This document shows positions 24,599-63,693 of a DNA stretch of 64,000 nt, piece by piece. Numbering within the stretch: position 1 is the stretch's first letter; every line of letters begins with the position of its first letter. The notes below the pieces were generated by a model. It worked only from the letters and a program-made list of their open reading frames with translations, ran no database searches and was not told where the DNA came from. The translations under genes were made by a program, and so were the position numbers. Source of the stretch: Phaeodactylum tricornutum CCAP 1055/1 (taxonomy: Eukaryota > Bacillariophyta > Bacillariophyceae > Surirellales > Neidiaceae); the NCBI RefSeq assembly GCF_000150955.2, contig NC_011686.1, positions 62,001-126,000 of the forward strand, given 5' to 3'.

Positions 24599-25946
24599 GA
24601 CAGTTGTGAGTGGGAAAAAGGTATCGCGTTGTGTCCAGGAAAGAAGTATTGGAGAGGCTCGTAGATAGGGCAGCGGGAGATAGAGGAGGGGATGCTTGTA
24701 CTGGGTTGGGGTTTTTTATTGTGGGAGCGCAGCGCACGTCACGAGAGAGGGAGTTCAGGCCTTTTAGGAATCTAGGCCTGCTTTTCCCCCACGGATATCC
24801 AAATACGTTACAGTTCCTTAGAAGTCAAGCCTATTAGTGTAGAGCCAGCAAATGATTTGAAGGCGATTGCGGATCGAAGTCGCATGGTATGTTCCCGTAA
24901 AATTCGCAAGGCTCGCGAGGTTCGCAATATTCGCGAACGGTTCGGGTCCACGAAATGTGCGGATCATTGGAACAGGATCAGACGAAAAACGCAATCGCAC
25001 GGTGCTACGGGAACGATTTGTGCACGCGCTTTCGCACGTCAATGTCGTATAGGTAAGACGCATCGAGATTTTTATGTGTGGGTTGGTCGTGGCCAAGAGT
25101 GATGGTTCATGCATGGTAGGTTACAGAGAGTCAATCCCCTTCCATCGGTATTTACATGATGGGTTTCTTCGTTGGATCTGGCGAATCTTAGACTCTAGAC
25201 GGGACCAACCCACAATCCAGTCCCTATCTCGGTAGGTAGGTAGGTTGCTACTGGAAGTCGTACCCGTAGTCCCAACGAAGCCCGGATTTGACGTATTTAT
25301 AAGTAGTTCAGTCTTGGTCCCCCAATGGTTGCCTTAAGTGTAAGCAGTCGAGTCAGTGCCGGTTGCTTCGGTCTTTGGTCAGAAAATGACTGTGAAACGA
25401 GTTTACGTTACCAGGATCGAGAGTTGGAATAATTCCGTGGGTGTAATCCTTCTCATGATGTCACCGACGAGCGCACTACCTATCAATACGTGCTAGAGAG
25501 GTTGATGGTGACGGTGAGACCCACCACCACCCCTACCTACCGCGACAACGGGAGCTTGGGGACCATTCTCGAAGTACCCGATTCTCCACCGCAACCCAGT
25601 AAACCAGAGTTGCGCGTCGGCGTGGACAGTGTGACTGTGTGAGAAAGGTCCAAGACCGAGAGATACGGTACACATAGGTAGGTAGCTAAGTAGGTAGCTG
25701 ACTAGCTAGGTATTCCCCCTGCCCCCTTTTTCAGACACAGCCATCCTCTTTAATTCGCTGCAATCCCACTCACGGTCCATATTCGGTTCCGTTTAGCTCC
25801 ATTGCGTGGAAGGCAATTTTGAATGCAATCGATTCGAAATCGAATAGACTGTGAATTAGTGGACTCTGTTCGATTCAACTGACTGTCTGACTGACTGATT
25901 GTTGGAAAAGACTGTTCCACAACAGGTCGTACGCGTCATTGCCCGC
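24599..25946. other. Intergenic region with simple repeats
   Basis: About 1.35 kb between divergent genes (ZIP transporter and BRO1 protein). Short GGTA/TAGG-type tracts occur at 25231-25244 and about 25676-25712, and a GACT-type tract just upstream of the BRO1 gene. No gene is supported. Confidence 0.5.
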
Positions 25947-28661
25947 ATGTCCGGTTTCGTCGCCAAGCTTCCCCTGCGTGTGCCGTTGGAGACAGATTTG
26001 GGGGGACAATTGGGGCGTTGGTTGGATCAAGCGCACGTGCAAAAGTGGGAAGGCCGACCCGGGATGACCTCTGCCGACTGTCGTGAGGATCTGGATCGGC
26101 TCGATCAGATGCGACGCAACGTCTACACTGCCTGTCGACACGGCGTCGCCGACGCCCTCCCCCACTTGCACGTCTTGCAAGAATACGCGGCGGCCCTCGA
26201 ACTCTGTGAAGAGCAAGGCTTTCCGTACAACAGCGGTGCCGTTGATGATTCTGGAACAACTCGTGACGACGAACACGATCGGCAACATCGACACAAATTG
26301 AACAAACGAGGACAGCAACATCATTCACCGCTATCGTCTGCATCGCTCGGAAACAGCAGCCTTGCCAACATGCTTGAATTCCCCTGGAAGTCTTCCGATA
26401 ATCAGGAAGAAGTCGACGGTACCTTGGCGTGGGAACGTGCCAACGTCCTTTGGAATCTCGCCATCGTGCAAGCCCACCAGGCCTACGCCGTCGAGAAGAC
26501 ACCCAACAATCCACAGTCTCGCACCGCCTGGAAACAAGCTGGTTTGCATTTGCAAACTGCCGCCTCACTTTTGCGGTATTTGCAAACGGATCTTTTACCG
26601 GCCGCTACGGAACGCTCTTTTCCGTCACACGATTTGTCGGCCTCCTTCTTGACACTCTGGGAGCGCTTTTGTTTGGCCGATGCGCAGTACGCCTTTTACC
26701 AAGCGGTTGCGGCGGCGCCCCGTCCTTTGCACGCTCTGCTGGCCAAGGTATCGGCCGCGGCAATTCCACTCTACGGCGTCTGTGAAGAATTGCTTCTCGA
26801 CGACGACGATTACGGTCTCGATACGAGTAGCTCAGCGAGTATCACTGCAAACGCCAGTGCTACCGGCCACGCGGCGGCTAACCAGTTCCGCAGTAAGCGA
26901 TTACAAATTTGGGGCGACGCGGTGCGGGCCTGGGGAATGTGGATGAGTGCCTTGTGTGAATATCATCAGGCGCAAACCCACGCGGACAAGGGTGAACGGG
27001 GTCCCGCCCATGCACGCCTCGAAGCGGCACAGAAATTTGGATCTCTCTGTCTCGATTTCTGTAACAGCGAGGAAGAATCGCTCTTGGACGATTTGGCGGA
27101 GCTAGTCTACGTAACCTTGCAAGATATGGAGACGCAATTGGAACAAGCGGAGCAAGCCAACAGACTAGACCCGGTCGACATTCCCGATCGGAACGATTTG
27201 CCCGAAGTTCCACCCCAAACCATGGTCGAAGTCGAAAAGGACGTATCGAGTAGTTTGCCAAAGCTGGCACCACCGCTCTTTACCAGTGGTCCCGGTTCTG
27301 TGCTGCGTCGGTACGAGCAAACCTTTCGATACGACATGCAGCGGCTCCTCACTAACACCACGCTCGCCGCCGAAGATAAAACGGATCAAGGACGACGAGC
27401 TTTGGCGACAGTTAATTTGCCGCATTCTGTTACAGCCTACCAACAGGAAAGTCAGGGTGGGGGCATTCCGGACGCTCTGTGGGAAAGGGTCCGAGTAGTG
27501 CAAGACCAAGACATGCTTCGAGAATTAAAACAATCGGTTTGGGAATTATGTGATATTGCCGAACGGGCGCGTTCGTTGTACCAGACTGTTCAAGAAAATT
27601 TGAAAGAAGATCTGCGGGTGGATTCTCTATTTCGCAGTCAAAATAGTACGTTTGAAGGACACAATGTATCGCAAGTTCAAAAGAGTTTTCACACAACACT
27701 CGAGAACTACGATTCGTTGCTGACGTCAGCTCGGGAAGGGGACCAGCTTGTTATGCAACGCGTCGAATTGCTCGATACAGATCCAAAGTATAAGTTGCTA
27801 CAGTTTCGGAAATCGCAACTGGATAGACTCTTGCCTGCGGGAGATCAGAATGTGGACGTGTCCACGCTCAGTCGAATGCTAGTGGAATTGTCGGCCTTGT
27901 TTCAGCGCCGCGACGTTTCGCTAGAGGAGTTGCGCAACAAAATGGAGGCGTATGATTTTACGGGTGAATTGGTGCAGGTGGATGAGCTTGGTCTGGAGGC
28001 AGAAGCTGAATACAAAGCAGTTTTTCAGCGGGCGAAGGATTCCTTTCAAGGAGCGTTGAACGGAATTGAACGAAGTATGGAGGAGCAGTCGAGGTTGGTA
28101 CGTGAAATTTTGACGGAAAACGATATTTTCATGCACGAACGCGAAAACAGTCGTGCGAAAGGGAGCACTGACCGAAGCATCACGATGATTGAAGATGCAG
28201 TAGACGAAGTGGAGCAATTGTCCACTCATTTGAAGGAGGGGCGGGATTTTTACGATTCGGTCCTGCCCAAATTGGAAAAGCTTCGCAAACAAGTTGGCGA
28301 TGTCAGTGCCCGTCTCACAATGGAGCGGTGTGAATATGAAGACAACACCCAGCGGAACCGACAAGAAGCCGATGACGCACGTATGGCCGCCAATTTGTCT
28401 GATCACGGTCAAGGTCAACAAACGCAAACCTCTATACGGTATATCGACAATGGAAGTGGCTCGTCCCCTAGGCGTCCTATGGACCGTGTGGCGACCCCTG
28501 GCATGCATCCAGTATCCCACGAGCTTCCTCAAGTACGCGTAGACGACGAAAAGGTCGCAAGTTTGGTAGCCATGGATTTCGATCCTAACCGAGTCTTTGC
28601 AGCTTTGTTACGATACGACAACAACTTTGAGCAAGCTTTGAATGATCTGTTGTCGGGATAG
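25947..28661 (+). CDS. BRO1-domain, ALIX-like protein with C-terminal UBA domain
   Basis: 904 residues from ATG 25947 (the frame extends upstream without ATG). Residues about 1-390 form a BRO1 domain: MSGFVAKLPLRVPLETDLGG at the start, a WERANVLWNLAIVQAHQAY helix and QAGLHLQTAASLLRYLQTDL. BRO1 domains bind the ESCRT-III subunit CHMP4/Snf7. Residues about 420-780 are long amphipathic helices with the look of the ALIX V domain (SVWELCDIAERARSLYQTVQ). The last 40 residues, from VDDEKVASLVAMDFDPNRVF to the end, fit a ubiquitin-associated (UBA) domain. ALIX and Bro1 normally end in a proline-rich tail, which is absent here. A role in ubiquitin-dependent endosomal sorting is inferred. No intron is needed. 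A second, short BRO1 protein lies at 62533. Confidence 0.9.
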   Translation: MSGFVAKLPLRVPLETDLGGQLGRWLDQAHVQKWEGRPGMTSADCREDLDRLDQMRRNVYTACRHGVADALPHLHVLQEYAAALELCEEQGFPYNSGAVDDSGTTRDDEHDRQHRHKLNKRGQQHHSPLSSASLGNSSLANMLEFPWKSSDNQEEVDGTLAWERANVLWNLAIVQAHQAYAVEKTPNNPQSRTAWKQAGLHLQTAASLLRYLQTDLLPAATERSFPSHDLSASFLTLWERFCLADAQYAFYQAVAAAPRPLHALLAKVSAAAIPLYGVCEELLLDDDDYGLDTSSSASITANASATGHAAANQFRSKRLQIWGDAVRAWGMWMSALCEYHQAQTHADKGERGPAHARLEAAQKFGSLCLDFCNSEEESLLDDLAELVYVTLQDMETQLEQAEQANRLDPVDIPDRNDLPEVPPQTMVEVEKDVSSSLPKLAPPLFTSGPGSVLRRYEQTFRYDMQRLLTNTTLAAEDKTDQGRRALATVNLPHSVTAYQQESQGGGIPDALWERVRVVQDQDMLRELKQSVWELCDIAERARSLYQTVQENLKEDLRVDSLFRSQNSTFEGHNVSQVQKSFHTTLENYDSLLTSAREGDQLVMQRVELLDTDPKYKLLQFRKSQLDRLLPAGDQNVDVSTLSRMLVELSALFQRRDVSLEELRNKMEAYDFTGELVQVDELGLEAEAEYKAVFQRAKDSFQGALNGIERSMEEQSRLVREILTENDIFMHERENSRAKGSTDRSITMIEDAVDEVEQLSTHLKEGRDFYDSVLPKLEKLRKQVGDVSARLTMERCEYEDNTQRNRQEADDARMAANLSDHGQGQQTQTSIRYIDNGSGSSPRRPMDRVATPGMHPVSHELPQVRVDDEKVASLVAMDFDPNRVFAALLRYDNNFEQALNDLLSG

Positions 28662-29544: not shown

Positions 29545-31671
29545 ATGGCAGGCAACATGTCTCAGCTAGACGACGCAATCATTGCCAAGATTAAGAAATT
29601 GGTGCCCCAATCGCTCGAGACAAGGGCCGACGCCGGCGATTCTAACCTGAACGAGCGCTGTCTGTCGGCATTGCTTTTGTCGACTCGCCTTTCCAGCACC
29701 ACCAAACTACAGCGCATTTTCTATGACAGAAATATTTTAATTGACTTCATACTTCTTTTGGTAGAAGAGAACGCTACAGGTACGACGTTGTACGCGCGAT
29801 TAGCGGCTCAGTTGGCTGTGCGCCTTGCTGAATGCGAGCCCGACAGAGATGAAAGAGACAGAGCAACTTTCCAACAGCGCTCTTGTCGTCGGATCGGGTC
29901 GGCTCTTTGTGGTATTTTGGACCTGAGAACACGCGACACAAAGAAGCCTTTGATGATTGAGGTCATTGACGTGGAAATCGTTATCGCACTTAATGAATTA
30001 GCTGCCAGGCTTGTACAATATCGAACTCGCACCGATGGCGACGGGGACATCGACAACGCTCTACTGGAAACAATTCTGGAACAGGCATGGAAGCTCGCGA
30101 TAAATGCTGCGGTACACACAGAGGAGGCAAAGGGTGTTTCACTATCAAACGATCCCCTGGGGCCGAAATTGAAGCAGCCAAGCGAAATTATGCACGAGAC
30201 TTTGACACAACTTCTAAATCAGAGTTCCAACGTGGTCTGTGAGCAGTCTCTGTCCGTGCAAATGAGCGCAGAGACTACTCGTCTGTTCTTCGATCATGCA
30301 TCGAGAATAACCAACTACAAAATACCTTCGTACTATCGCTCCGCTTTAAACTGGGCTCGGGAGGGATTGGGTTCGTCCCCTTCCAGCTTTCTTGACGAAA
30401 GTCGAGAGTCCCCATCGACTACATCCGAATGCTCCAGCCTTAGATCCGCATCTATCCAAATCATTTTGTGGACCTCTCACTTGTTGGCAGCACTACCTTC
30501 ATTCCAAGCACAAATTGATGCCAACGAAATGGAGATTTCTGAAGGATTGGCGCGCCTGATTGTGGCCGGCTGTGTCTCTTCATCGGCACATCATCAGGAC
30601 CAATCCGACACATTCCGCTCCCTTTCTTGGAGCACGCTAGGTACTTTGGTACAAGCTATTGGATGGAGATGGCTATTTAGCGTCCAATGGCAACATACAT
30701 CGGTTTTTGGATCAGCACATTCTGTGTGTATACTCTTACGACTGGCTGTAGGAGAATGGAAAATTCAGCTAGGTTTTTTACTATCCGAGACAGAAGACAA
30801 CGAACCTGACAGCCAAAGTCTTTTGAACGACAGCAAGGTGTCTATATTTCAAACTTGTGCGCAAGTGATCATAGCGGCTGTTGAATATGTTGTTGAGCTG
30901 GCAACGGAAGTGGAGAACGATGGAAGTTTGTCTGTACCCGTCGACTCTGTGTTACATTTGCGCGAGTCCCTTTACGAATGTTTGGACGCTATTGTGCAAT
31001 ACTTTGCGTCCTTTGAGGAATCCTTGACGAAAGGAGTTAGAGCTGAGTTGGTTGATGTATGTGTCATTCGAGTCATGAGTTCTTTGCTGATGGAAATGGA
31101 TGCGTTCGAAACAACTCTACCGACTAGTACGACTTTAAAGGAAGACGGAGAACAGGAGAATGCTGTCTTGGGCGCACTCCGTCGGGCGATGAACGTAGAT
31201 ATCAAGCAAGCGAGGGAAGCTTTGTTGCCAGGGCTGGCGTCCGTATTTTCATCGGCTAAAAACCACGAGGATGAGAGCGACATACGGGTAGGTCTGTTGA
31301 AAGATTACGATCTCGTGGGAGATTCATTGGCGGATTTCTTGACCATTTTCTGGAACGAAAGAGATGCGGATGGATCCAGCATTGAATGGGCCTGCCGAAC
31401 TACCGAATTGTGGCTCTTCCTCACCGACGTTACCAAGGTGTCTACTATTCAAGATGGCATCGTTCGGTGGCTCCAGCTGAGTACGATTGCGCAAACTCGA
31501 CGCCCTAGCGGCGCAGGTACAAGTATACATGGCGGCAAAGAAAGCACGCAACAAGCAGTATATGCGGCGGTTGGTTGCTACGCTTTTCTTCAAGGTGATA
31601 CGAAACCCGGTGAGCCGCACGCCTCTATTCTACAGTGTGCGTTGCAAGAATGCAGTGAACTTGTGGAGTAA
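29545..31671 (+). CDS. Helical-repeat (ARM/HEAT-like) protein, possibly neurochondrin-like
   Basis: 708 residues from ATG 29545, which has an excellent context (TTACCATGGC); the frame upstream has no ATG. The chain is almost wholly helical, Leu/Ala-rich, without membrane segments. NERCLSALLLSTRLSSTTKL, then RIFYDRNILIDFILLL and YARLAAQLAVRLAECEPD near the N-terminus resemble the opening repeats of neurochondrin, a family of similar length (about 730), but the match is by eye and weak. A general ARM/HEAT scaffold is the safe reading. Its 3' end is convergent with the exoribonuclease gene, 161 bp apart. No intron is needed. Confidence 0.75.
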   Translation: MAGNMSQLDDAIIAKIKKLVPQSLETRADAGDSNLNERCLSALLLSTRLSSTTKLQRIFYDRNILIDFILLLVEENATGTTLYARLAAQLAVRLAECEPDRDERDRATFQQRSCRRIGSALCGILDLRTRDTKKPLMIEVIDVEIVIALNELAARLVQYRTRTDGDGDIDNALLETILEQAWKLAINAAVHTEEAKGVSLSNDPLGPKLKQPSEIMHETLTQLLNQSSNVVCEQSLSVQMSAETTRLFFDHASRITNYKIPSYYRSALNWAREGLGSSPSSFLDESRESPSTTSECSSLRSASIQIILWTSHLLAALPSFQAQIDANEMEISEGLARLIVAGCVSSSAHHQDQSDTFRSLSWSTLGTLVQAIGWRWLFSVQWQHTSVFGSAHSVCILLRLAVGEWKIQLGFLLSETEDNEPDSQSLLNDSKVSIFQTCAQVIIAAVEYVVELATEVENDGSLSVPVDSVLHLRESLYECLDAIVQYFASFEESLTKGVRAELVDVCVIRVMSSLLMEMDAFETTLPTSTTLKEDGEQENAVLGALRRAMNVDIKQAREALLPGLASVFSSAKNHEDESDIRVGLLKDYDLVGDSLADFLTIFWNERDADGSSIEWACRTTELWLFLTDVTKVSTIQDGIVRWLQLSTIAQTRRPSGAGTSIHGGKESTQQAVYAAVGCYAFLQGDTKPGEPHASILQCALQECSELVE

Positions 31672-31832: not shown

Positions 31833-34800
31833 TTACTCCAATTGCAATGGTGTTTCATTCGGGATCGATTCTCTGCCACTCAAACAGGCAAGATCTTGAC
31901 TGAAGACGCGTTGCCAACCATGCTCGTGAGTTATCAAATATACGTTAATGAATCCTCCCGAATAGGCATCCCGAAATGTTGCGTGTCGAATCGCCTTCAG
32001 ACCCAACGCCACGGCCTCGTCCACCGTTAGATCATGACGCTTCTCTGTATCCAAAATACCCAGGGCAAAAGTACTTCCAGAACCTACTGCAAAGACGTCT
32101 CCTTCAATGCGTGTGCCGGAGTTGTCAACGTAAAATATTCGTGCTCGACTAGATTTTGTTTCTGTGTCGTCAAAGCCCATAACCATAGTCCCGACAGAGA
32201 GGCCCAATTTTCGATTGTCATACAAGGCATTGGACAAAAGCCGTGATGCCCGAGCCACCGACATTCGGCGTCCGTCCAGCGTCAGTACGTGCATGGCGGC
32301 CTCACCCTGCAACTTCCGAATCCAGAAGGAGCAATCGGCAGCACCACCAGCCATAGTGCCCAACATATGCGAATTAATGGGCAAGACCTTTTGAGTGGTT
32401 TTCGACCCTACAAAACTCCCCAGACTTGCGCGAGAATCGACGGCTGCGACAATCCCTCCCTGAAACACAAAAGACAATGTCGTCGTGCCGTGTGCAAATT
32501 CAAGTGGAGGAGGTGGCGGATAGGAACCGACATCTGGAGGCAATAGCTCCACCTCGTCTCCAAGATGGACATCATTCCTAGCTTCGCGCTGCGCAAATAA
32601 CTTATTGCGAGAGAAGTCATCCGTTGGCGAGGATTGTAAATGGGCTTTACGTCCAAGCTCAATAGCACCGACACTAGAAAAAAGCGACGCAAAAATCGCT
32701 CCAAGAGCAAAAATTCGCCCTCGTCTAGGAAATGTAGCTGCTGTCCTTAAAGGATTCACTTCTGCGAAAAAAGCTGGACGCACGATAGCTCTGTTCGATG
32801 TTAAACAGTTCAAACCAGGTCTCTCCAGCGTGCAGAACTCGCGTGACGTTGGCTTCATCTTCTTCGACAAAGTTCCAAAAGCTCGCGACTGTGATGGCAA
32901 TCCATACAAAAGACTGGACATGGAGGTCGCTCGTACTGTGATTCCGGTAATTTCGTCGTCGGGAATCAAGTCGATCTTTTCTTGATATCCTCTGCTTCTT
33001 TGATTAGACTTGGCATTGACATTTTCTTTGGTCGAATCTTCGTCATCTGGGCGATAGGTGAGTACTCGTTTTGCAGCGTTGTAAGGATCCTTTTCCAGGA
33101 GAGCTGGAAGACTTTCCAACCGTTTGTCCTCGCTCACTGGTGCCCAAGATTTAACAAATAGAGGTACTTCCACTTCAAACTTGGCAAATGACTTTACAAC
33201 CGTGCCATCCGCCATGGTTCGCAAACCTTTTATGGGTCGGACGTATAGTAAAGTTTCGAGCTCTTCGACCCCACTTCTTGTTTCTGTGATCGTCAAGCCG
33301 CCAGTCCCAGTGTAACCTTCACCAGTGATGTATCCATTTATAACTTTCTTCAGTCGCGATTTGCGTCCTGTAGATTCTCGACTAGTCCATTGGCGCAGAG
33401 CCTCCTCCCCTCGAAGTATGCCTTGAGAATCGGACACTGCAGTGACAAGGGCCTCAATCAACACCGGATAGTTTATAAAAATGGTAGTCCCAATCAAATG
33501 TGGAGCCAGCTGTAAAATAGAAATTCCTTCGGGTGTCGAATTGTGAAGTTGCAGAAGTGCCGTTGTGTATCGACTGATGTTTCCGTGTACATTCACTTTT
33601 AGACGCTTGCGCCACATGCTGTGTACGGATCCATCCCGAAGCGTCGGTAAGCCGCTTAGAGGGACTTGAGTGCCTGGCTTCACTTCAGGTTTGAATATTG
33701 GCGGCGAGGAAGATACTCCAGGGTATCGCCATTGTGACGATACAAATGGAATTGATACTGCTGTGCAATCCTTGACGGTGTCAAAACATTTCCCAATACC
33801 TGTGGCTTCGAGATCGCGTTTTGAAGAAGCGTCGTTCAACCAGACAACGCTTTCCTTAAACTCGTTTCGCCCCACTTCCGCCTCAGACAACAATTCAGGA
33901 CTGACGCTGTTCGCGGCAGACAAAAGCCGCTCAGAGTCAATAAAAGGAAGCATAACGACTGCCTCCCAAGGCCACCTCTTTCCATTCATATCCACCGTGA
34001 ACGAACGCGGGTAAAATTGGCTGATCGGCGACGATGGGTCTGTCATGAGCCAGCGGTAGGGTTCAGGAAGTAAATGGGAATGAGAAGGGGGCATACATGC
34101 CATGAGTTGTTCAAAGGGTTTAAGCGGTGAGCCCATTTTACCATCAAATGAGACTTCACGTAACATGCCATCCACTCCGACGAGATCGGATATCATGGGT
34201 CCATAGTGGAATGGATAGTACCATTCCCAAGAAATGCAGCCTTCATAATAGTACTTAAGATTCCAAACGAGACCTTCCACGTAAGCTTTTCGCAGAGCGA
34301 TGTGTTTTTCTGCGTCAAACGGTGAAAACCCAAACTTGTCTGCATAATATCTTCCTTTGACATCGGTAACGTCGAACGCAGGCTCAGGTAACTTTTGCTG
34401 GGTGTCATTCTTTTTGTCCGGTACCGAAAACTGTAACAAATGACCCATTCGAGAGAAAAGCCCTTTGCCATCGTCTTCTTTATCACTCTTCTCTTGGTAG
34501 GAAGGTATGGAAGACATTACTGGTGTAAAATCAAGATGTTCTTTAACCGCAATCCGTTGTTTTTGTTCCACTGACTGCTCGAGCATGCCTCTGAAACGTG
34601 ATCGATCCTCTTGTTCCTTGGAGGCTAAAATTTCGTCGCTTGGTGTCGTAACCATCCCCCATTTGGCTTCCAGGGTTCGTGCCTTTCCAGGATCCTCCGT
34701 GCTTTTCTTGTAGTCATAGTAGGAACTCTCGTGGGCACCAACCACTCCGAGAAAAGATTCCAGCCGTTCGCCCGAGGCGATATTTCCCGCATTCGTCAAA

Positions 34801-36110
34801 TACGGGTCTTCCTTTTGGCTGAGCCATTTTTCACGTTGAGAGCGGTAAGTATAAAAAAGTAAATCAAAAGCCTCGTCAGCAATGTCCAAGGCCGGCATGT
34901 GTGGCAGAAAATCGTTCCCCACAAAAAAGGTCATGAAGACAAAGTCATCAATGGTCCGTTCCAAATCGTAGGGCGACTCAGGCCATACGTTAGAAGTTTC
35001 AAACTCAAAAGCAAAGTAGTCCCGTAAAATGTTCATGTGCAAGAATTCGAAGTTAGGATTGTGAATGTAGGCGTCAAGTCCGTGTGCTGCCAAGCGATCG
35101 TTGCGTCGGCGGTCAAAAATGACTTGTTCGCGTAGGAGAAAGAGATTGGGCTCGTGGGTTACCAGTCCTAGCATGATTAGATCCCCATCCTGTCCCATGA
35201 TGCAGTGCCGAAGATTTGGATCATAGTCAGGTCTGGATTTTTGCTGTCGCATAAACTCCATGATTTTGTGCTCGCCTTCTCCTGGAACGTTTGGCCCAGA
35301 AAAAATGATATCCAGATCTTTCCAGGCCGGATCCGTCGAAAGCTTGAATTGAATAAAATGCTCGATGTGCTTTGTACATTCGCTAAAAAAGGAAGTCCCT
35401 GGTGTAATAACGTTGGAATGAAAGATATTACTGTCGGCGCTCTCGTCGCCTAAACCAAACGTACTGTCGCTTTCATGTGTTTCAAACTTGCCCGTGAAGC
35501 GACCTGGCTCCACTTCGGTCAAGAGCGTTTCCTCGTCTTCTCGTTGCTCGTCCCTGTTCTGTGAGTGTAGATTGATTTCGTCATCAAAGTCGCCCGTCTC
35601 CTCCATCTTGCGTTGGCGATTCCGCTCCCTTTCACGTTCCATCGCTTCCAAATGAGCATCGTAGACGGTCCGCTCAATCTCACCTTCTTTTCCCGAACGA
35701 TAGCGACGGGACCGCTGTTGATTGAGTTTGGCTCTGGGCGCTACACCATCAATTGCCATGTACACGAGTTGCTTGGGCTTGGCAATGTCCTTGACGACCC
35801 TATCCAGATAATAGCAGATATTGCGAAAAATCTCGTCTTCCGAAATATTGGCAACACCTTCTTCCCCGTTCTCTTCGGCTTCGCTGTTATTGTGCGAACA
35901 GCCGTGAATGATTCCATTCATGTCGATGTAAAGGCGATCGATTTCGGGGGCTAGACCGCAAGTCGACAATGGATCGGGCTTCGGCATGTTCGCGGGCGGA
36001 TCGGTGCCAAAATGCTCCTGCGTCGTTTCTGCGTTGGGCGGACAGCCATGCCGCTGGATAACCTTGGGGTAGCGCTCGGAAAGCCAACGAAAGAATTTTG
36101 GAACTCCCAT
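31833..36110 (-). CDS. 5'-3' exoribonuclease (XRN) in one frame with 20S proteasome beta5 subunit
   Basis: A 1425-codon frame with no stop from ATG 36110 to 31833. Residues 1 to about 1050 are an XRN nuclease: it starts MGVPKFFRWLSERYPKVI and keeps the acidic residues of the active site in YIDMNG, MAIDGVAPRAK, PGEGEHK, GQDGDL and GNDFLP. Residues 1209-1425 are a complete beta5 proteasome subunit: mature Thr1 after HG, Asp17, Lys33 and Met45-Ala-Gly47 are all in place, and the family's GTMAGGAADCSFW is present. Between them, residues about 1064-1208 have two in-frame ATGs (32921, 32858), a hydrophobic stretch after twin Arg (RRGRIFALGAIFASLFSSVG) and a PPPPP run. Two neighbouring genes whose frames happen to join, with a separate internal start for beta5, is the cautious reading; a true fusion cut at the beta5 propeptide site is the alternative. 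No intron with matching phase was found between them. Confidence 0.9.
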   Translation of the reverse strand: MGVPKFFRWLSERYPKVIQRHGCPPNAETTQEHFGTDPPANMPKPDPLSTCGLAPEIDRLYIDMNGIIHGCSHNNSEAEENGEEGVANISEDEIFRNICYYLDRVVKDIAKPKQLVYMAIDGVAPRAKLNQQRSRRYRSGKEGEIERTVYDAHLEAMERERERNRQRKMEETGDFDDEINLHSQNRDEQREDEETLLTEVEPGRFTGKFETHESDSTFGLGDESADSNIFHSNVITPGTSFFSECTKHIEHFIQFKLSTDPAWKDLDIIFSGPNVPGEGEHKIMEFMRQQKSRPDYDPNLRHCIMGQDGDLIMLGLVTHEPNLFLLREQVIFDRRRNDRLAAHGLDAYIHNPNFEFLHMNILRDYFAFEFETSNVWPESPYDLERTIDDFVFMTFFVGNDFLPHMPALDIADEAFDLLFYTYRSQREKWLSQKEDPYLTNAGNIASGERLESFLGVVGAHESSYYDYKKSTEDPGKARTLEAKWGMVTTPSDEILASKEQEDRSRFRGMLEQSVEQKQRIAVKEHLDFTPVMSSIPSYQEKSDKEDDGKGLFSRMGHLLQFSVPDKKNDTQQKLPEPAFDVTDVKGRYYADKFGFSPFDAEKHIALRKAYVEGLVWNLKYYYEGCISWEWYYPFHYGPMISDLVGVDGMLREVSFDGKMGSPLKPFEQLMACMPPSHSHLLPEPYRWLMTDPSSPISQFYPRSFTVDMNGKRWPWEAVVMLPFIDSERLLSAANSVSPELLSEAEVGRNEFKESVVWLNDASSKRDLEATGIGKCFDTVKDCTAVSIPFVSSQWRYPGVSSSPPIFKPEVKPGTQVPLSGLPTLRDGSVHSMWRKRLKVNVHGNISRYTTALLQLHNSTPEGISILQLAPHLIGTTIFINYPVLIEALVTAVSDSQGILRGEEALRQWTSRESTGRKSRLKKVINGYITGEGYTGTGGLTITETRSGVEELETLLYVRPIKGLRTMADGTVVKSFAKFEVEVPLFVKSWAPVSEDKRLESLPALLEKDPYNAAKRVLTYRPDDEDSTKENVNAKSNQRSRGYQEKIDLIPDDEITGITVRATSMSSLLYGLPSQSRAFGTLSKKMKPTSREFCTLERPGLNCLTSNRAIVRPAFFAEVNPLRTAATFPRRGRIFALGAIFASLFSSVGAIELGRKAHLQSSPTDDFSRNKLFAQREARNDVHLGDEVELLPPDVGSYPPPPPLEFAHGTTTLSFVFQGGIVAAVDSRASLGSFVGSKTTQKVLPINSHMLGTMAGGAADCSFWIRKLQGEAAMHVLTLDGRRMSVARASRLLSNALYDNRKLGLSVGTMVMGFDDTETKSSRARIFYVDNSGTRIEGDVFAVGSGSTFALGILDTEKRHDLTVDEAVALGLKAIRHATFRDAYSGGFINVYLITHEHGWQRVFSQDLACLSGRESIPNETPLQLE
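31836..32486 (-). other. Mature proteasome beta5 (chymotrypsin-like) part
   Basis: 217 residues beginning at the catalytic Thr (codon 32486-32484), which follows Gly of HG|TTTL, the usual autocatalytic cut. Typical mature beta5 is about 200-205 residues. The sequence around RDAYSGGFINVYLI matches the conserved C-terminal core of this subunit. It sits inside the long frame described at 31833-36110. Confidence 0.93.
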
Positions 36111-36826: not shown

Positions 36827-39800
36827 TCATGTCAGTTTGACAAATTTGCCGTACTGCGATATCGCCTTTTCTTCAGCGGAGCGAATGGCATTTTCGACTG
36901 CTTCCGGGCCACCCGTTTGCGACAGAGCTTCGTGCAAACTAGTTCGAACCAAATCGTGCTGTGCAAGTAAGGCCAGGAGATCGTCGTGTTCTGCCAGCAG
37001 CTCAAAATACATATTTCTCTCCTCCTCGATTGCCTCTTTCTGCTGCTGAATCTCATCATAAAGCTGAGAAGTTTGTGCGTACGATTGCTTCGCCTTTGTA
37101 TTTCTGTTCTCCGCCTCGTCGTCGCTACTTTCGGCCGGATTTTCGCCAAGAACGACGCTAGGACTGTCTCGTATAGAATCAGCAGCTTGCAAGCGCGCAA
37201 ATTCCGCTCGAACTTGCGCTTCGTAGCGTCCTTCACGCTCCAATTGGCTTGCTCGCATCTTGGCATCCCGACACTCTTCTGTAAGCTTTTTGATCTTGGA
37301 ATTAGCATCATCCAAATAACTCCGTAGGTCATCATTATCTTTCTTCGAAGCTTGGACGTGACTTTTTAAAGTCGCGAGCTCTTCAGATAACTTGGACATT
37401 TCGGCGTCATCAATAACGCGGGCCGGGGAACTTCTCGCCGCTAGGATCCGTTCCTGTTCCAATCGGAGGTCCCTGAGCTCTTGCTTCACATTCGCTAGGG
37501 CCATCTCCGACGCATGCCGTAACTCTCGCTCCAAAATGACGTCGGATTCTGCAGAAGCGTTTGCAGCTTCACGAGTTTCTCGCAAACGATGTTCGGCCCT
37601 GGAGCGTTCTTTCGCAATAGACGACAAAAGCTGGGCTTTTTCGAGTTGTAGTTGGACAACTTCGTCTCCTCTGAATGACTCAGAAAGTGATCGGTCTCCC
37701 GCAGAAGATGCCTGGACTAACGCCTCGTTGCTCCGTTCGCTCTCTTTTAAAGATTGAAACAAACGATCTCTTTCCATGTGAAGTTGAGTCAATGTATTCT
37801 GTAAATTCTCAATTTCAGCGGCATGAGCACGATTCAGGACGCCCTTGTCATTTTCAAGGGATGCAATTCTGTGTTCGAGCGAAGAACGACAGGTCGACTC
37901 GCGTCCTCTTAGTTCTTTGATTGTCTCGTTCATGGCTTTCAAATCCGCTTTACTGGCAACAATTTCTTGTTCGTACACAGTGACTTGAAGGTCCATTCTA
38001 CTAACACGCTCCTTAACTTCTTCCTCTGTTCGCCGAGCGTAGTCGAGTTCATCTAGAGTCCTTGTCAGCGCTGCCTTTAGCTCCTCCATTTCCAGCCGCT
38101 CTCGTCTTTGGAAATTTGCAGTCGCGTCCAGGGTCTGCCGTTGAATTTCGCTCATATTGTCTTCGGTGTCTTCCATTCCCAGCAACGCCGCCATATCGCT
38201 CCGGAGACGACGGGCTTCTATCTCCGCATCCTCACGCTTTTTCTGTTCGTCGGCAATGGTTTCCTCCTGCATTTCCAATAGCTCTCGAAGCTCGTCCACT
38301 TGCTGTCGGAGCGCTTGTGCCGCTGAAGCGGTAGCCTTTTCTGATATTTCATTCGTTGTAAGAAGCCGTAACGCATCCTTGGCTTGCTGTATTTCGTCCT
38401 CAAGCTCGCCGGCGTGGGTTCTTAAAGTGTCTCGTTCCTGTTCTATACGGGCTCGTGAACTGCGGAGATCGTCGCGCTCGCGTACAAGTTCCTCCAGTTG
38501 GGAGCGCTCAATCAGCCGCTGGGCTTCTACACATTCATTTGCCCGAGAATGTTCTGCCACACCAGAATCGAGGCGGGACGCAAAGTGCTCTGCGGATTGC
38601 TCTGCTTTCCCTTGCAAGGCAGCAAGTGAGGCCTCAACTGTCAGTCGTTTCGACCGTTCCTTTTGAAGCTCTTGACGAAGAGGCATATCTTTCATTTCGT
38701 CTACGGACTGAATAGCCGCCAAACGGGCCTCGAGCTCACGGTTTCGGTGTTCCGCGTCCATAAATTGACGCTCCCAGCTCGAAATAGCGTCGTTTGCTTC
38801 AACTGCCTGAGTTTCAAGCTCGTCCTCGAGTGCCTTTATAGCAGCTTTCAGATTTCTCTCTACAGCCTCGACCTTTTCAACACGGTCTAGAACCAAGGAA
38901 ACAATGTTAGTGAGCTTAAAATGCATTTAGGCGCCAAGTCAGGCCTGGACATACCTTTCCACTGGGACACGACTTCTTCCGACTCCACCATGAGAGCTTG
39001 AATTTCTACTTCGGCATCTCTCGTTTCCTCTTCGTTAGCCATTTTGTCGAATGCGACGTTGTCTTTCACCGATGCAACATCTGAGCGACGTTCAGAATTT
39101 TCCTCGTTTACCGGTGGCCATGACTCTTTGGGTTGTGGCTGTCCATATTTTGGTTCCGCGTTGTAAAGAGATGCAGTGTCGCGCTTACAATTTGTAGCAG
39201 TCTCAGTTTCAAGCACGCTGAGGACGCATAAAGCTTTGTCACGTTCCGCAGTGATCTCTTGGATTTTCGTCTGCTGCTCGAGGGTCTTTTCTTCCAGCTG
39301 ATTGCAGCACGCTTCCCATTCTGCAATAACAGCCTCAGCTTCTTTCCGTTCCTCGCAAAGCTGAATATCGTATTCTTGGATTGTTTGCTGCAAGTCAACT
39401 ACCCTCAAGTGCTCGGCATCTAACCCTGCCGATAGTATACTATTTTCATCGGACTTGTCCGTTGTTGCTAAATTCAAGTCCACAGAGAGCGAGTCGCATT
39501 GCTGTGTTAAAGCAACCAACTTAGCTTGAAGTTCTGTGGAGCGCTTCTTCTCCTTGTCTAACGAGTCTCTTGTATCTGAAAGTTCATTTTCCAAACTCTC
39601 ATTTTTCTGCTCCAATGCACGGTAGCTTGTTACCCCTCTGTCAAGCTTTTCTGATAAGCAATTGACCTCGCTTCTCAGCTCCGTAGCTTGTCTCTCAAAG
39701 TTTCGTTGCAACGCTTCGTTTGATTCCTGCTCTCGAGAAGCAATTTCTTGAAATACGACCATCTTTTCCTCAGTAGCTTTCAAGCTCTTCCCAGCTACTG

Positions 39801-42800
39801 AATACTCGTCCTTCAAAGTCGAAAGCTCATCATTCAAAGTCGAAAGCTCATCTTCTCGTAGTGACAAAACGAAAGCTGCTTCTTCAATTTCCTTTTTCTT
39901 TTGAAGAAGCTCTCTCTCAAGGAATTCCTTTGACGTCTCCCGTTCCTTCAATTTTTCTTTCAACTGCAGTATTTCAATGTTTGCTTCGTGATCTGATGCT
40001 GCGAGTTTCTCTTTCAAATGCTCGATGACCTTAAGTAGCTTACCCTCAGCCTGCGCCAGTGCTGCTATTTTAATCTCTGCTTCCTGATGGCCCTCCTGCA
40101 GGAGTGAATAATCCTTGATACGCAAGTCTGCAGCCAAAAGGTGACTCGCCGTGTCTTCCGCAGCCGCCTCAAGCAAGCATACTTGTTTCCTCAGAAAGCT
40201 CACCTCCTCTGAAAGGTCGCGCTCCGTCCGCGAGATCGATTCGGCATCGAAAAGCGCTTTCTCGAGTCGTGTCTCTACTTCCTCTCTGCGGCCTTGCAAG
40301 TCGGAGTACCTTGCCTGCCATTGACCAATAACGGTACTAGTATCTTTTTCTTGCTCCCTTAATTGGTCTTTTAAACCCTGTATAGTCAACTTCAACTCAA
40401 CCATACGTTCGTCAAACTGCTTTCTCTCAGCTTCTGAAACCTCAATCCTCCCTCTCAAACTAGAAATTTCCTGAGCACATTCTTTTTCTGGCGGTTGCAC
40501 GCCATTTCTTAGGGATACAAGTGCTTCTCAAGCACAGCATAGCTTTGCTGCCATTCAGAGATAACATTGCTAGCATCGGCTTCTTGGTCCTCTAGCTGCT
40601 GCCGGAGCGATTCCAACCTACTCTCCAACTCGGTGACACGGTCCTCCTGCTGCTGAGAATCAGCGCTCTCGGACGAGGCTTGCAACAGTTCCTCCAGCTC
40701 GAGTACGCGGGACCGAAGTCGATCCACCTCTTCGGGCAGTGTGTGCTTTTCGGAAGACAGCTCACCCGCGGCGACATTCTCGGCTGTCGACAACCGGCTT
40801 TCGAGCTCGATTTTTTCCGTCTCAAGCACAGCATAGCTTTGCTGCCATTCAGAGATAACATTGCTAGCATCGGCTTCTTGGTCCTCTAGCTGCTGCCGGA
40901 GCGATTCCAACCTACTCTCCAACTCGGTGACACGGTCCTCCTGCTGCTGAGAATCAGCGCTCTCGGACGAGGCTTGCAACAGTTCCTCCAGCTCGAGTAC
41001 GCGGGACCGAAGTCGATCCACCTCTTCGGGCAGTGTGTGCTTTTCGGAAGACAGCTCACCCGCGGCGACATTGTCGGCTGTCGACAACCGGCTTTCCAGC
41101 TCGATTTTTTCCGTCTCAAGCACAGCATAGCTTTGCTGCCATTCAGAGATAACATTGCTAGCATCGGCTTCTTGGTCCTCTAGCTGCTGCCGGAGCGATT
41201 CCAACCTACTCTCCAACTCGGTGACACGGTCCTCCTGCTGCTGGGAATCAGCGCTCTCGGACGAGGCTTGCAACAGTTCCTCCAGCTCGAGTACGCGAGA
41301 CCGAAGTCGACTTCCCTCGACATGAGATTTAGAGGCTTCGTCACTTTCACTGAGTCCTGGATCTTGGGTATAAAGATTCCGTTGCAATTTTTCAATTGAA
41401 CTTTCGAGACGTGCAATCTCCAAGTCTTTTACAGCTAGGTCACCTTCCATGCTCTCGATTCCAGATACGCGAGAAAGTAAAATTAGAATTTCGCTGCTAC
41501 TTGCCTCTAGTTGTCCACGTAGCGAATCTCGTTCCGCCTTCAATTTAGAGACCTCATTGCGCTGTTCTGAATAATCTTCCAACTGCAAGTAAAGTTGACG
41601 GATTGCTTCTTCACGCCTATTGATCTCGGATTCGGCTTTTTTCAACGCTGTTTCGATATGTTCCTTCTCTCTAAGCTGTCTCTTCAAAGCGGCTATATCG
41701 ATTTCCATGCTGGCAATGTGGGCAATTCGATCGTCAAGATCTTTGTGAAGCTGTTCAACTGCAACACGAATTCGATCCTCAACTTCAGGCGCGGAGATCC
41801 CTGAGATCTGAGATGAAGCAGGATCCGTCTCGTCGCGTTGTCTCAGCTTGCAGTTCAGTGCAGAAACTTCTTGAGAAAGGGATCCAACCTGGTCTGACAA
41901 GAGTCGGTGGTGCTCAACAGCTTTTGCCATCCATTCCTGAGCAGCCTCGTTTGCTTCACGTAGCTGTGATATCTCGGCTTCCCGACTGAGGATGTCTTCC
42001 ACCGTATACACGCCTAATCCCCCGTCCAGTCTTGCCTCCAACGCTCTGATCCGGGATTCTCGCTTATAAATTTCGGATTGCTCCCGGTTCGCAACGGATG
42101 CGAGTTCGGAACGCAGATGGGCCAATTCATGAGCTTGGGAAGCTTGCTGCTCCGAGGATAGTGCGTCCTCGGATAGCTCCTTCGCAAAACCCTGTAGCTG
42201 GTCTCGTTCTTCAGCAAGAGAACTGGCCTCATTTTCTATTCTCTGGAGTTCATTGTTTGACTGCTCAAGTAAAGATATCTCTCCGATGATCTCAGCTTCC
42301 GCGTTTGCGAATTCCTTCTGAATCTCCGGCTGATTTCCTTTGGTTATATTTGCGGCGCTCTCGTCCGTGATTGCTTTTGAGTCGAATCGCTCCGTACCGA
42401 TTCTCGAGTTCGATGATCTTTGCCTCAAAAAACATTCGCTGCCGGGCTAATTCTTCTTCCAGCACTGTTTTTGTGATCTGATCGTGATCTGGCGAAAAAA
42501 TGTCTTCTTGATTAGTAGCGACTACAAGCTGACCCCTCAACGAGAGGACTTCCGCCTCCAATGCCTGATTGGCAGACGTCACCTTGTCCATTCGCTCTGT
42601 TGCCATCGCCATCCATTCATCTGCTTTCTGAAGCTTCGCTGAGTTGTCGGCGGCCTCGGCAACATTGAAGTCTAATGTTTCACAGTGATTTCGCATCTCC
42701 TCAAGCTTTTTGTCCGACGAAGATTGAACCTCCGAGAGCTCAGCCTCCAACCGTGCAATGAGAGATGCATCACCGGTCAAAGCGTCGGCATTTGTTCTCC

Positions 42801-61762: not shown

Positions 61763-62532
61763 AACAGAGAGTGTCTGATACCCGACCGTGTAAGATGTCT
61801 TCTAGTGTGCTGCTGCAGGGTGCTACGGAATAGTAGCAATAGTCGGAATGAGTAGTCAAAGCCCAGTTCTCACTGTAAATCGTACTTTAGTTGCAGTTTT
61901 TTGGATTCGAAAGGACAAAATATACATCGTGCTCTGCTTCGTTTGTGCAGACACGTTTGGTCCAACGACGAGGTACAGCTAGAAGCACTTGTTCGACTCT
62001 AGTCACTACCTATGTATCTACCCTACGAGAGCTAGGTAGACCAACGTCCTACGCTCCCGCGATGCCCCGGAGCTCCGATCTCCGTTATCGAACGACAAGA
62101 TATAAAATAACTGTTATTGTGAATCATAATATTCGTCGAGATGAACAACGTAGCGAACGACAATCCCGTACAGGGGTAGGGTTGGGAAGGAAACGCAGCC
62201 TGGAAAAATCACGAGCTGGTTTGTTGACTGAAAAATATCGTTTCATGTTCACATCAGACCGATCGCTCAAACCCGAAACTGTTGCGCGCCTTCGAAGAAC
62301 CAGAAAGCAGTCGCGCTGTATTCACGATTATCATTTCTTCCATCTGGATACACCTTCGGCTTCGTTAGGAACGGAGAGGCTCCTTTTCCTGTTTGAAAGA
62401 GTTTGTCGCGGTTTGCAGTGATTTACTAACAGTTAGTGATAGCTAATAACAGATTACGACAAGCCCAGTCGAGAGACGCAACCAAGATTCTATCGGCTCG
62501 GTTTCCGTACTTTACAAAAGCTTGCACTCGCC
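61763..62532. other. Intergenic region
   Basis: 770 bp between two plus-strand genes. A frame at 61891-62421 (176 codons) begins with TTG and is Arg/Ser/Thr-rich without any family resemblance; not called. Confidence 0.45.
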
Positions 62533-63693
62533 ATGCTCATTCTCCCGTTGAAGCCAGCCGTCCGTTTTGATCTACAAACCGCACTTTCAAAATGGCTAGA
62601 CTCGGATCAAGAAGTCTCGTTTCAACCATCCAATCCGTTGCAATTTGTGCTTCCCAAGCCAGATTTGTCCGCCGCCGCCTGTCGCGAAGATCTCTTGCGA
62701 TTGCAGTCACTACGCAACTGCGTTACTGATGTGCTCTTGAAGCGCGATTCCCACCGAGCGGCACTGGAAGACGATGGGTTGGCGGATTGTCACGAGTATC
62801 ACGCCACTTTGCTTGAGTTCGAAAAACGTGGGTTCCCCACGCTCGACGATGAACACAACGGATTGCGGCTTTTTTGGAAAGGCGCGTGGTCACCCGAGGA
62901 GGAACGACACGCAACATTAACGTGGGATCGTGCCGTGATTGAGTTCAATACTGCAGCGTTGCTAACGGGAATGGCCGCCGAATGCTCCGTCACCGATCGA
63001 GCTGCTTGCAAAGAAGCTGTGAATTACTGTCAAACGGCGGCGAGTATTCTGGCCGTTCTGAAAGAACTCGTGCAGTCTATGGACTTTGCCACGGTGGATT
63101 TAAGTCAACCCATGTTGGCGTTCTGGGAAAAGTATCTCGTCGCCCAAGCACAAATGTTCATTTATCGCATGGCCGCTCAGGCCGGAGACGACACCAAGCA
63201 TTCGACATTGTCGGTCTTGTCACAATCTGCCTTTGCCCTGTTTAACGAAGCGTTGACGGCTGCACAAGACCCACGTTTGGAATCCGAAGTACCTAAAGAG
63301 TCGTCTACATGGGCCACGTACTGCAAAGTGTCTTCTATGTTGAGTGTCGCTAAGGCCGAATACCACCAGGCGGTGGTTCACCGACTAGCGAACGAATGGG
63401 GCAAGGAGATTGCCCGGTTGCGCGATTGTCATTTAAAATTTGAAACGCTGTCAAAATTCGTACGGGGCCTGGACGACGATGGTCCAGTTTCTTATATGAG
63501 ACGCGAGTGCTTGGCCATTTTGCCAGTCGTTCACGATCGGTTGCACGAAGCCGACAAGGACAATTACAATATTTACCAGGAAAAAATTCCTGAAGAAATG
63601 CCCGAAATCGCCGCCAAACAATTGGCCAAGAGTAGCGGTGGACTTCCACAATCAATGTTGGTTCCCAAGAAGCAGGTCTTTGTAAATGTATAA
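62533..63693 (+). CDS. Stand-alone BRO1-domain protein
   Basis: 386 residues from ATG 62533, almost exactly one BRO1 domain. MLILPLKPAVRFDLQTALSK opens it, WDRAVIEFNTAALLTGMA is the helix that meets CHMP4 in relatives, AVNYCQTAASILAVLKELVQ follows, and DKDNYNIYQEKIPEEMPEIA near the C-terminus is the typical last BRO1 segment. There is no V domain, proline tail, UBA or C-terminal CaaX box, so it differs from ALIX, Bro1 and Brox. It may bind ESCRT-III and regulate it, or compete with the long BRO1 protein at 25947. The ATG is the first in frame. No intron. Confidence 0.93.
   Translation: MLILPLKPAVRFDLQTALSKWLDSDQEVSFQPSNPLQFVLPKPDLSAAACREDLLRLQSLRNCVTDVLLKRDSHRAALEDDGLADCHEYHATLLEFEKRGFPTLDDEHNGLRLFWKGAWSPEEERHATLTWDRAVIEFNTAALLTGMAAECSVTDRAACKEAVNYCQTAASILAVLKELVQSMDFATVDLSQPMLAFWEKYLVAQAQMFIYRMAAQAGDDTKHSTLSVLSQSAFALFNEALTAAQDPRLESEVPKESSTWATYCKVSSMLSVAKAEYHQAVVHRLANEWGKEIARLRDCHLKFETLSKFVRGLDDDGPVSYMRRECLAILPVVHDRLHEADKDNYNIYQEKIPEEMPEIAAKQLAKSSGGLPQSMLVPKKQVFVNV

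Follow-up and report, generated by a model that had tools for sequence, protein, structure and literature searches.

Layout of the locus

A stretch of 64,000 nucleotides from the diatom Phaeodactylum tricornutum CCAP 1055/1 (NC_011686.1, positions 62,001 to 126,000; the window hereafter, with coordinates counted from its first letter) holds an XRN1-type 5'-3' exoribonuclease and a complete proteasome β5 subunit in one uninterrupted minus-strand reading frame. The frame is free of stop codons from 36116 to 31833, and a start at ATG 36110 gives a product of 1425 residues. The nuclease comes first, with the XRN_N, XRN_M, and XRN1_D1 domains, and is followed by β5. In the linker between the two, the codon signal leaves the shared frame (frame 0) and moves to the -1 frame. 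The two enzymes are probably separate proteins, with the XRN tail switching out of frame 0 around residue 1060 through a splice or a one-base difference. The features are collected in Table 1. A long plus-strand frame ending at 31671 converges on β5.

An earlier note had described this locus as 1425 stop-free codons encoding an XRN nuclease with its catalytic acids and a complete β5 with Thr1 at residue 1209 behind a glycine, with internal ATGs at 32921 (M1064) and 32858 (M1085). Its coordinates are correct. The open reading frame (ORF) listing of the minus strand (36110 to 31833) bears out the codon count, and both ATGs are present in frame. The description of β5 agrees with Pfam, solved-structure matches, and alignment A1, and the XRN acids are invariant in alignment A2.

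Table 1 Features of the XRN-β5 locus, in window coordinates.
Feature	Position	Strand	Basis
Uninterrupted frame, 1425 codons plus stop	31833..36110	-	ORF listing and translation
XRN1-type 5'-3' exoribonuclease part, about residues 1-1059	32934..36110	-	Pfam, solved-structure matches, coding signal to about residue 1060
Stretch losing the frame-0 codon signal, -1 frame coding-like; putative XRN tail; residues 1060 to about 1128	32728..32933	-	Codon models and interpretation
In-frame ATG, residue 1064, candidate β5 start	32919..32921	-	Sequence
In-frame ATG, residue 1085, candidate β5 start	32856..32858	-	Sequence; no later in-frame ATG upstream of Thr1
TAG stop of the -1 frame, candidate XRN end	32725..32727	-	ORF 32725-33003, minus strand
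T-rich stretch coding the hydrophobic segment, residues 1133-1151	32658..32714	-	Hydropathy and splice scoring
β5 mature part: Gly1208, Thr1 (residue 1209) to 1425	31836..32489	-	Pfam, solved-structure matches, alignment

The XRN1-type exoribonuclease

The 1425-residue product was compared with Pfam. XRN_N was found at residues 1-329 (7.4e-86), XRN_M at 381-766 (4.7e-92), and XRN1_D1 at 810-983 (1.2e-13; 51.6 bits against a cut-off of 26.2). Sequence matches to solved structures aligned residues 584-999 with yeast Xrn1. Alignment A2 has three rows, two of them assembled from printed alignments, and D63, D121, E278, E280, D308, D310, and D400 are invariant in it; we take these acids, like the β5 positions described below, to be catalytic.

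The D1 domain distinguishes Xrn1 from Xrn2. Both the XRN_N/XRN_M core with its conserved acids and D1 were found here, and in these two nuclease segments, D1, and the acids invariant among the three rows, the protein resembles the Xrn1 family. Yeast and fly Xrn1 carry later domains, whereas here Pfam gave no match between the end of D1 (983) and the proteasome domain, a weak test of their presence. When residues 764-1136 were compared with solved structures, no Xrn1 chain was returned, even for D1, so this search is too insensitive to show absence. The nuclease at 32934-36110 would be a short Xrn1 if it is complete at this length.

The proteasome β5 subunit

A Pfam Proteasome domain was found at residues 1207-1393 (3.7e-42). 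Among the solved-structure matches listed, the top proteasome chains are β type-5/PRE2, with β type-8 ranking below. In the three rows of alignment A1, the C-terminal part is 48% and 51% identical to two β5 sequences, presumably those of human and yeast, and the positions matching β5 T1, D17, K33, S129, D166, and S169 are invariant. Thr1 is encoded by the codon starting at 32486, directly after Gly1208. Judged from its sequence, the C-terminal part is a proteasome β5 subunit.

The β5 subunit is made as a proprotein that cleaves itself before Thr1, and eukaryotic β5 does so when half-proteasomes join. The propeptides of human and yeast β5 have 59 and 75 residues. The present subunit is like PSMB5/PRE2 in its 48-51% identity, its Gly-Thr1 junction, and its matched active-site positions. 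It differs in that no stop separates it from the upstream gene and in the length of its propeptide, which would be 145 or 124 residues if β5 starts unspliced at M1064 or M1085; downstream of M1085 there is no further in-frame ATG before Thr1.

Codon signal across the linker

The chance of a non-coding stretch staying open over 86, 120, and 145 codons was calculated as 0.023, 0.0056, and 0.0022 with an order-1 Markov model of the linker, and as 0.015, 0.003, and 0.0009 from the stop rate in 5278 nucleotides of presumed intergenic DNA. The open linker of XRN and β5 is thus unlikely to arise by chance in 86-145 non-coding codons. Genome-wide, with many close tandem pairs, some linkers would be expected to be open by chance.

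Codon models were trained on 14 long frames of the window, and parts of XRN and β5 were added for later runs. The training frames are presumed genes; a Pfam match above the cut-off was found in 4 of the 9 window proteins scanned. Codon use in frame 0 is ordinary up to about residue 1060, and residues 998-1063 score normally (12.2; coding 8.6±6.7). Residues 1064-1149 score -8.1 in frame 0, compared with 11.2±8.2 in 190 coding windows, of which 0.5% are as low. The wrong-frame mean in this comparison is -8.4±7.0, and frame 0 is therefore at the wrong-frame level.

Within residues 1064-1127, the scores are 10.3 for the -1 frame and -5.7 for frame 0. None of 1871 overlapping coding windows had a wrong-frame lead as large as this 16.0, the maximum there being 13.7. 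With synonymous codons alone, the -1 frame scores 5.4 and frame 0 scores -4.8, and the fraction of wrong-frame windows as high is 0.001. The best frame-switch points lie between about residues 1055 and 1071. Between about codon 1110 and the TAG that ends it near codon 1128, the -1 frame loses its lead, and the translation of the -1 tail includes VLHAGETWFELFNIEQSYR. No comparable shift was seen in the first-ATG windows (n=15) and end windows (n=16) of the training frames, where the largest values were 1.7 and -4.5; several of these windows are inner exon or trimmed ends rather than true protein ends.

Frame 0 recovers partly in residues 1150-1208, where it scores 2.9 (wrong-frame fraction 0.043) and the +1 frame 3.5; the frame-0 synonymous score is still low there. 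Guanine plus cytosine (GC) content by codon position also departs from coding DNA in residues 1064-1149 (GC2-GC1, 99.1 percentile among 330 windows). This departure was given little weight because a targeting peptide would look alike. A 5-mer coding model was dropped as too rich for the training set; under it, 91% of coding windows scored higher than the linker and 93% of wrong-frame windows scored lower, an ambiguous result. Taken together, the codon evidence against ordinary frame-0 translation of residues 1064-1127 is suggestive only.

Splice sites and the hydrophobic segment

Splice sites were scored with generic matrices, entered by hand and not trained on this organism. Intron pairs of 40-400 nucleotides were scored over codons 985-1208, with donors above 1.5, acceptors above 2.5, and a sum above 8. 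Acceptor-like sites were found at 32762, 32534, 32725, and 32674, which rank within the best 0.1 to 2.2% of coding-DNA AGs. A donor at 32936 joined to an acceptor at 32791, 32762, 32725, or 32674 would give XRN a stop within 1 to 21 codons, and the same donor joined to 32889 or 32589 would keep XRN in frame with β5. A frame-changing intron in the linker is possible on these scores. Two candidates were considered, 32936-32791 (146 nucleotides; XRN would end SYRASSFFRRSESFKDSSYIS) and 32907-32674 (234 nucleotides; β5 propeptide of 67 residues). Neither is claimed, and no structure stands out.

No other 19-residue stretch of the frame is as hydrophobic as the segment IFALGAIFASLFSSVGAIE (residues 1133-1151; mean hydropathy 1.8); outside the linker, the next highest value is 1.58 at residue 872. 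The acceptor-like site TTTTTTCTAG at 32674 lies inside the T-rich DNA of this segment. Because its T-rich DNA adjoins acceptor-like sites, the segment may not be translated at all. Should it be translated, it would be a membrane-like piece between two soluble enzymes, or it could serve in targeting if β5 starts separately.

Searches for related sequences

The linker gave no Pfam match above the cut-off in frame 0, -1, or +1 (best E 0.13). Its stretches gave nothing significant against solved structures (best E 0.56), a weak test, as D1 was also missed. Scans of viral and prokaryotic contigs with a single sequence and with an alignment found no diatom locus. Three loci were returned, which are too distant to inform on the linker: a distant XRN (L001, 34%) and two β5 genes (L002 and L003, whose best segments match at 48% and 62%). 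XRN and β5 occurred together in none of the three (E 0.01, DNA around these loci). L002 and L003 were interpreted as contamination, eukaryotic and perhaps fungal in origin, of a bin with a deltaproteobacterium label; the eukaryotic-type β5 gene at 6001-6691 of L002, in a contig binned in this way, looks like contamination. Among the matches listed in a literature search, no title or abstract opening described an XRN-β5 fusion.

Other features of the window

Three long minus-strand frames at 36827-42446 are coiled-coil-like by eye and are perhaps exons of one gene, with a likely 68-nucleotide intron at 38954-38887. Pfam also identified two BRO1-domain (ALIX-like) proteins, at 25899-28661 (with a UBA domain) and at 62443-63693.

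Discussion

An ordinary upstream gene needs a stop codon. The open DNA frame therefore leaves three options: XRN translation exits the frame, the sequence is not that of the working copy, or there is a genuine fusion. Separate proteins are favored because the codon statistics oppose frame-0 translation of residues 1064-1127. The XRN1-type exonuclease and β5 would then be ordinary minus-strand neighbors, head to tail and nearly abutting. The XRN reading would leave frame 0 near residue 1060, either through an unrecognized splice or because the sequenced DNA is one base off the working copy, and would end at TAG 32725. Translation of β5 would begin separately, at ATG 32921 or 32858, its propeptide perhaps being spliced, and the proprotein would cleave itself before Thr1 in the usual manner. 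The open frame, the two enzymes with their conserved matched active-site positions, and the shift of codon signal are direct observations; that the messages are separate, where XRN ends, and where β5 starts are inferred from them. The earlier note had offered separate transcripts or an internal start as at least as likely as a fusion. The codon statistics favor separate proteins; an internal start explains β5 and leaves XRN without a stop. The P. tricornutum genome is described with a mean intergenic distance of 307 bp, introns averaging 142 bp, and prominent intron retention, and its re-annotation yielded 194 merged models and 262 split ones (PMC5859163).

Several observations weigh against two proteins with a frame exit. 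The best donors in the linker are weak (4.8, 4.4, 4.2, and 4.0; top 6 to 10% of GTs). Four likely short introns elsewhere in the window have donors of 8.2-10.4, chosen by the same generic matrix, and by this comparison no linker intron is convincing. The -1 tail has no Pfam match above the cut-off (best E 0.13) and no solved-structure match. Its signal may be a chance one, because in 3.5% of 458 presumed non-coding windows the highest-scoring of the three frames attains 10.3. Within XRN itself, a wrong frame leads by up to 10.5 bits over 50 codons in a homology-covered part (within 771-850) and by up to 7.0 in residues 666-740 (at 671-720), the maximum in the linker being 15.0. The +1 frame is coding-like at residues 1110-1182 (7.9; wrong-frame fraction 0.005; synonymous 0.013); this signal, which fits no simple gene structure, could be noise and calls for caution. 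A linker of this length is rarely open by chance (0.0009-0.023, given the frame), and a β5 propeptide of 124 or 145 residues is long, its first half also lacking a coding signal. The +1 coding-like linker frame spans 32411-32746 and overlaps the β5 propeptide.

Two units could also overlap without any change of frame, the β5 promoter lying inside the end of XRN and β5 starting at M1064 or M1085. An internal start serves β5 and leaves XRN without a stop, so an unspliced XRN mRNA must read into β5, and the read-through XRN product would be extended or unstable. Two in-frame ATGs do stand before β5. As many as 63 ATGs precede residue 1064 in the three frames of the strand (27 in frame), which makes leaky scanning past XRN implausible and means that β5 would need its own message. 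The loss of the frame-0 codon signal and a propeptide of 124-145 residues, long against 59 in human and 75 in yeast, speak against such an overlap, and it is considered doubtful. Green algal bicistronic genes likewise give two proteins from neighboring same-strand frames, through leaky scanning, with start codons under-represented before ORF 2; unlike those genes, the present locus has no intervening stop and has the 63 upstream ATGs (PMC11291117).

A true fusion, with one mRNA and all 1425 codons translated, appears unlikely. It would account directly for the 1425 codons without a stop, the complete β5 with its conserved matched active-site positions, the low chance (0.0009-0.023) of an open non-coding linker of 86-145 codons, and the lack of a convincing donor to move XRN out of frame. 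However, frame 0 is not coding-like in residues 1064-1127, and the 19-residue membrane-like stretch in the linker would be odd between two soluble enzymes. An extension of 1208 residues would hardly fit where half-proteasomes join, the stage at which β5 cleaves itself. As a variant, a protease could cut the linker in place of β5 self-release. The polyprotein proposed in the earlier note, in which β5 releases itself before Thr1 and yields XRN and β5 in a fixed, equal ratio, is very unlikely; nothing tested supports a fusion with self-release.

The least probable reading is a β5 copy with a long N-terminal targeting region for the endomembrane system or the periplastid space: residues 1064-1150 start basic and rich in S, R, and T, their hydrophobic core ends VGA (peak 1.8 at 1133-1151), and a targeting peptide would account for the high GC at second codon positions, but the core lies at least 48 residues after any in-frame ATG, its T-rich DNA also resembles a splice acceptor tract, and the sequence is close to ordinary β5.

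Merged gene models, in which two independent genes appear as one, are described for Tetrahymena (PMC3143110); in the present case, it is the raw DNA frame itself that is open, not just a gene model. If the fusion were true, it would be a eukaryotic polyprotein uniting a main RNA exonuclease with the proteasome, and it would contradict the idea that a β5 propeptide has to be accommodated within the assembling particle. Without a fusion, the locus is a useful warning that neighboring genes of a compact genome, when joined by an open frame, may be merged by automatic annotation.

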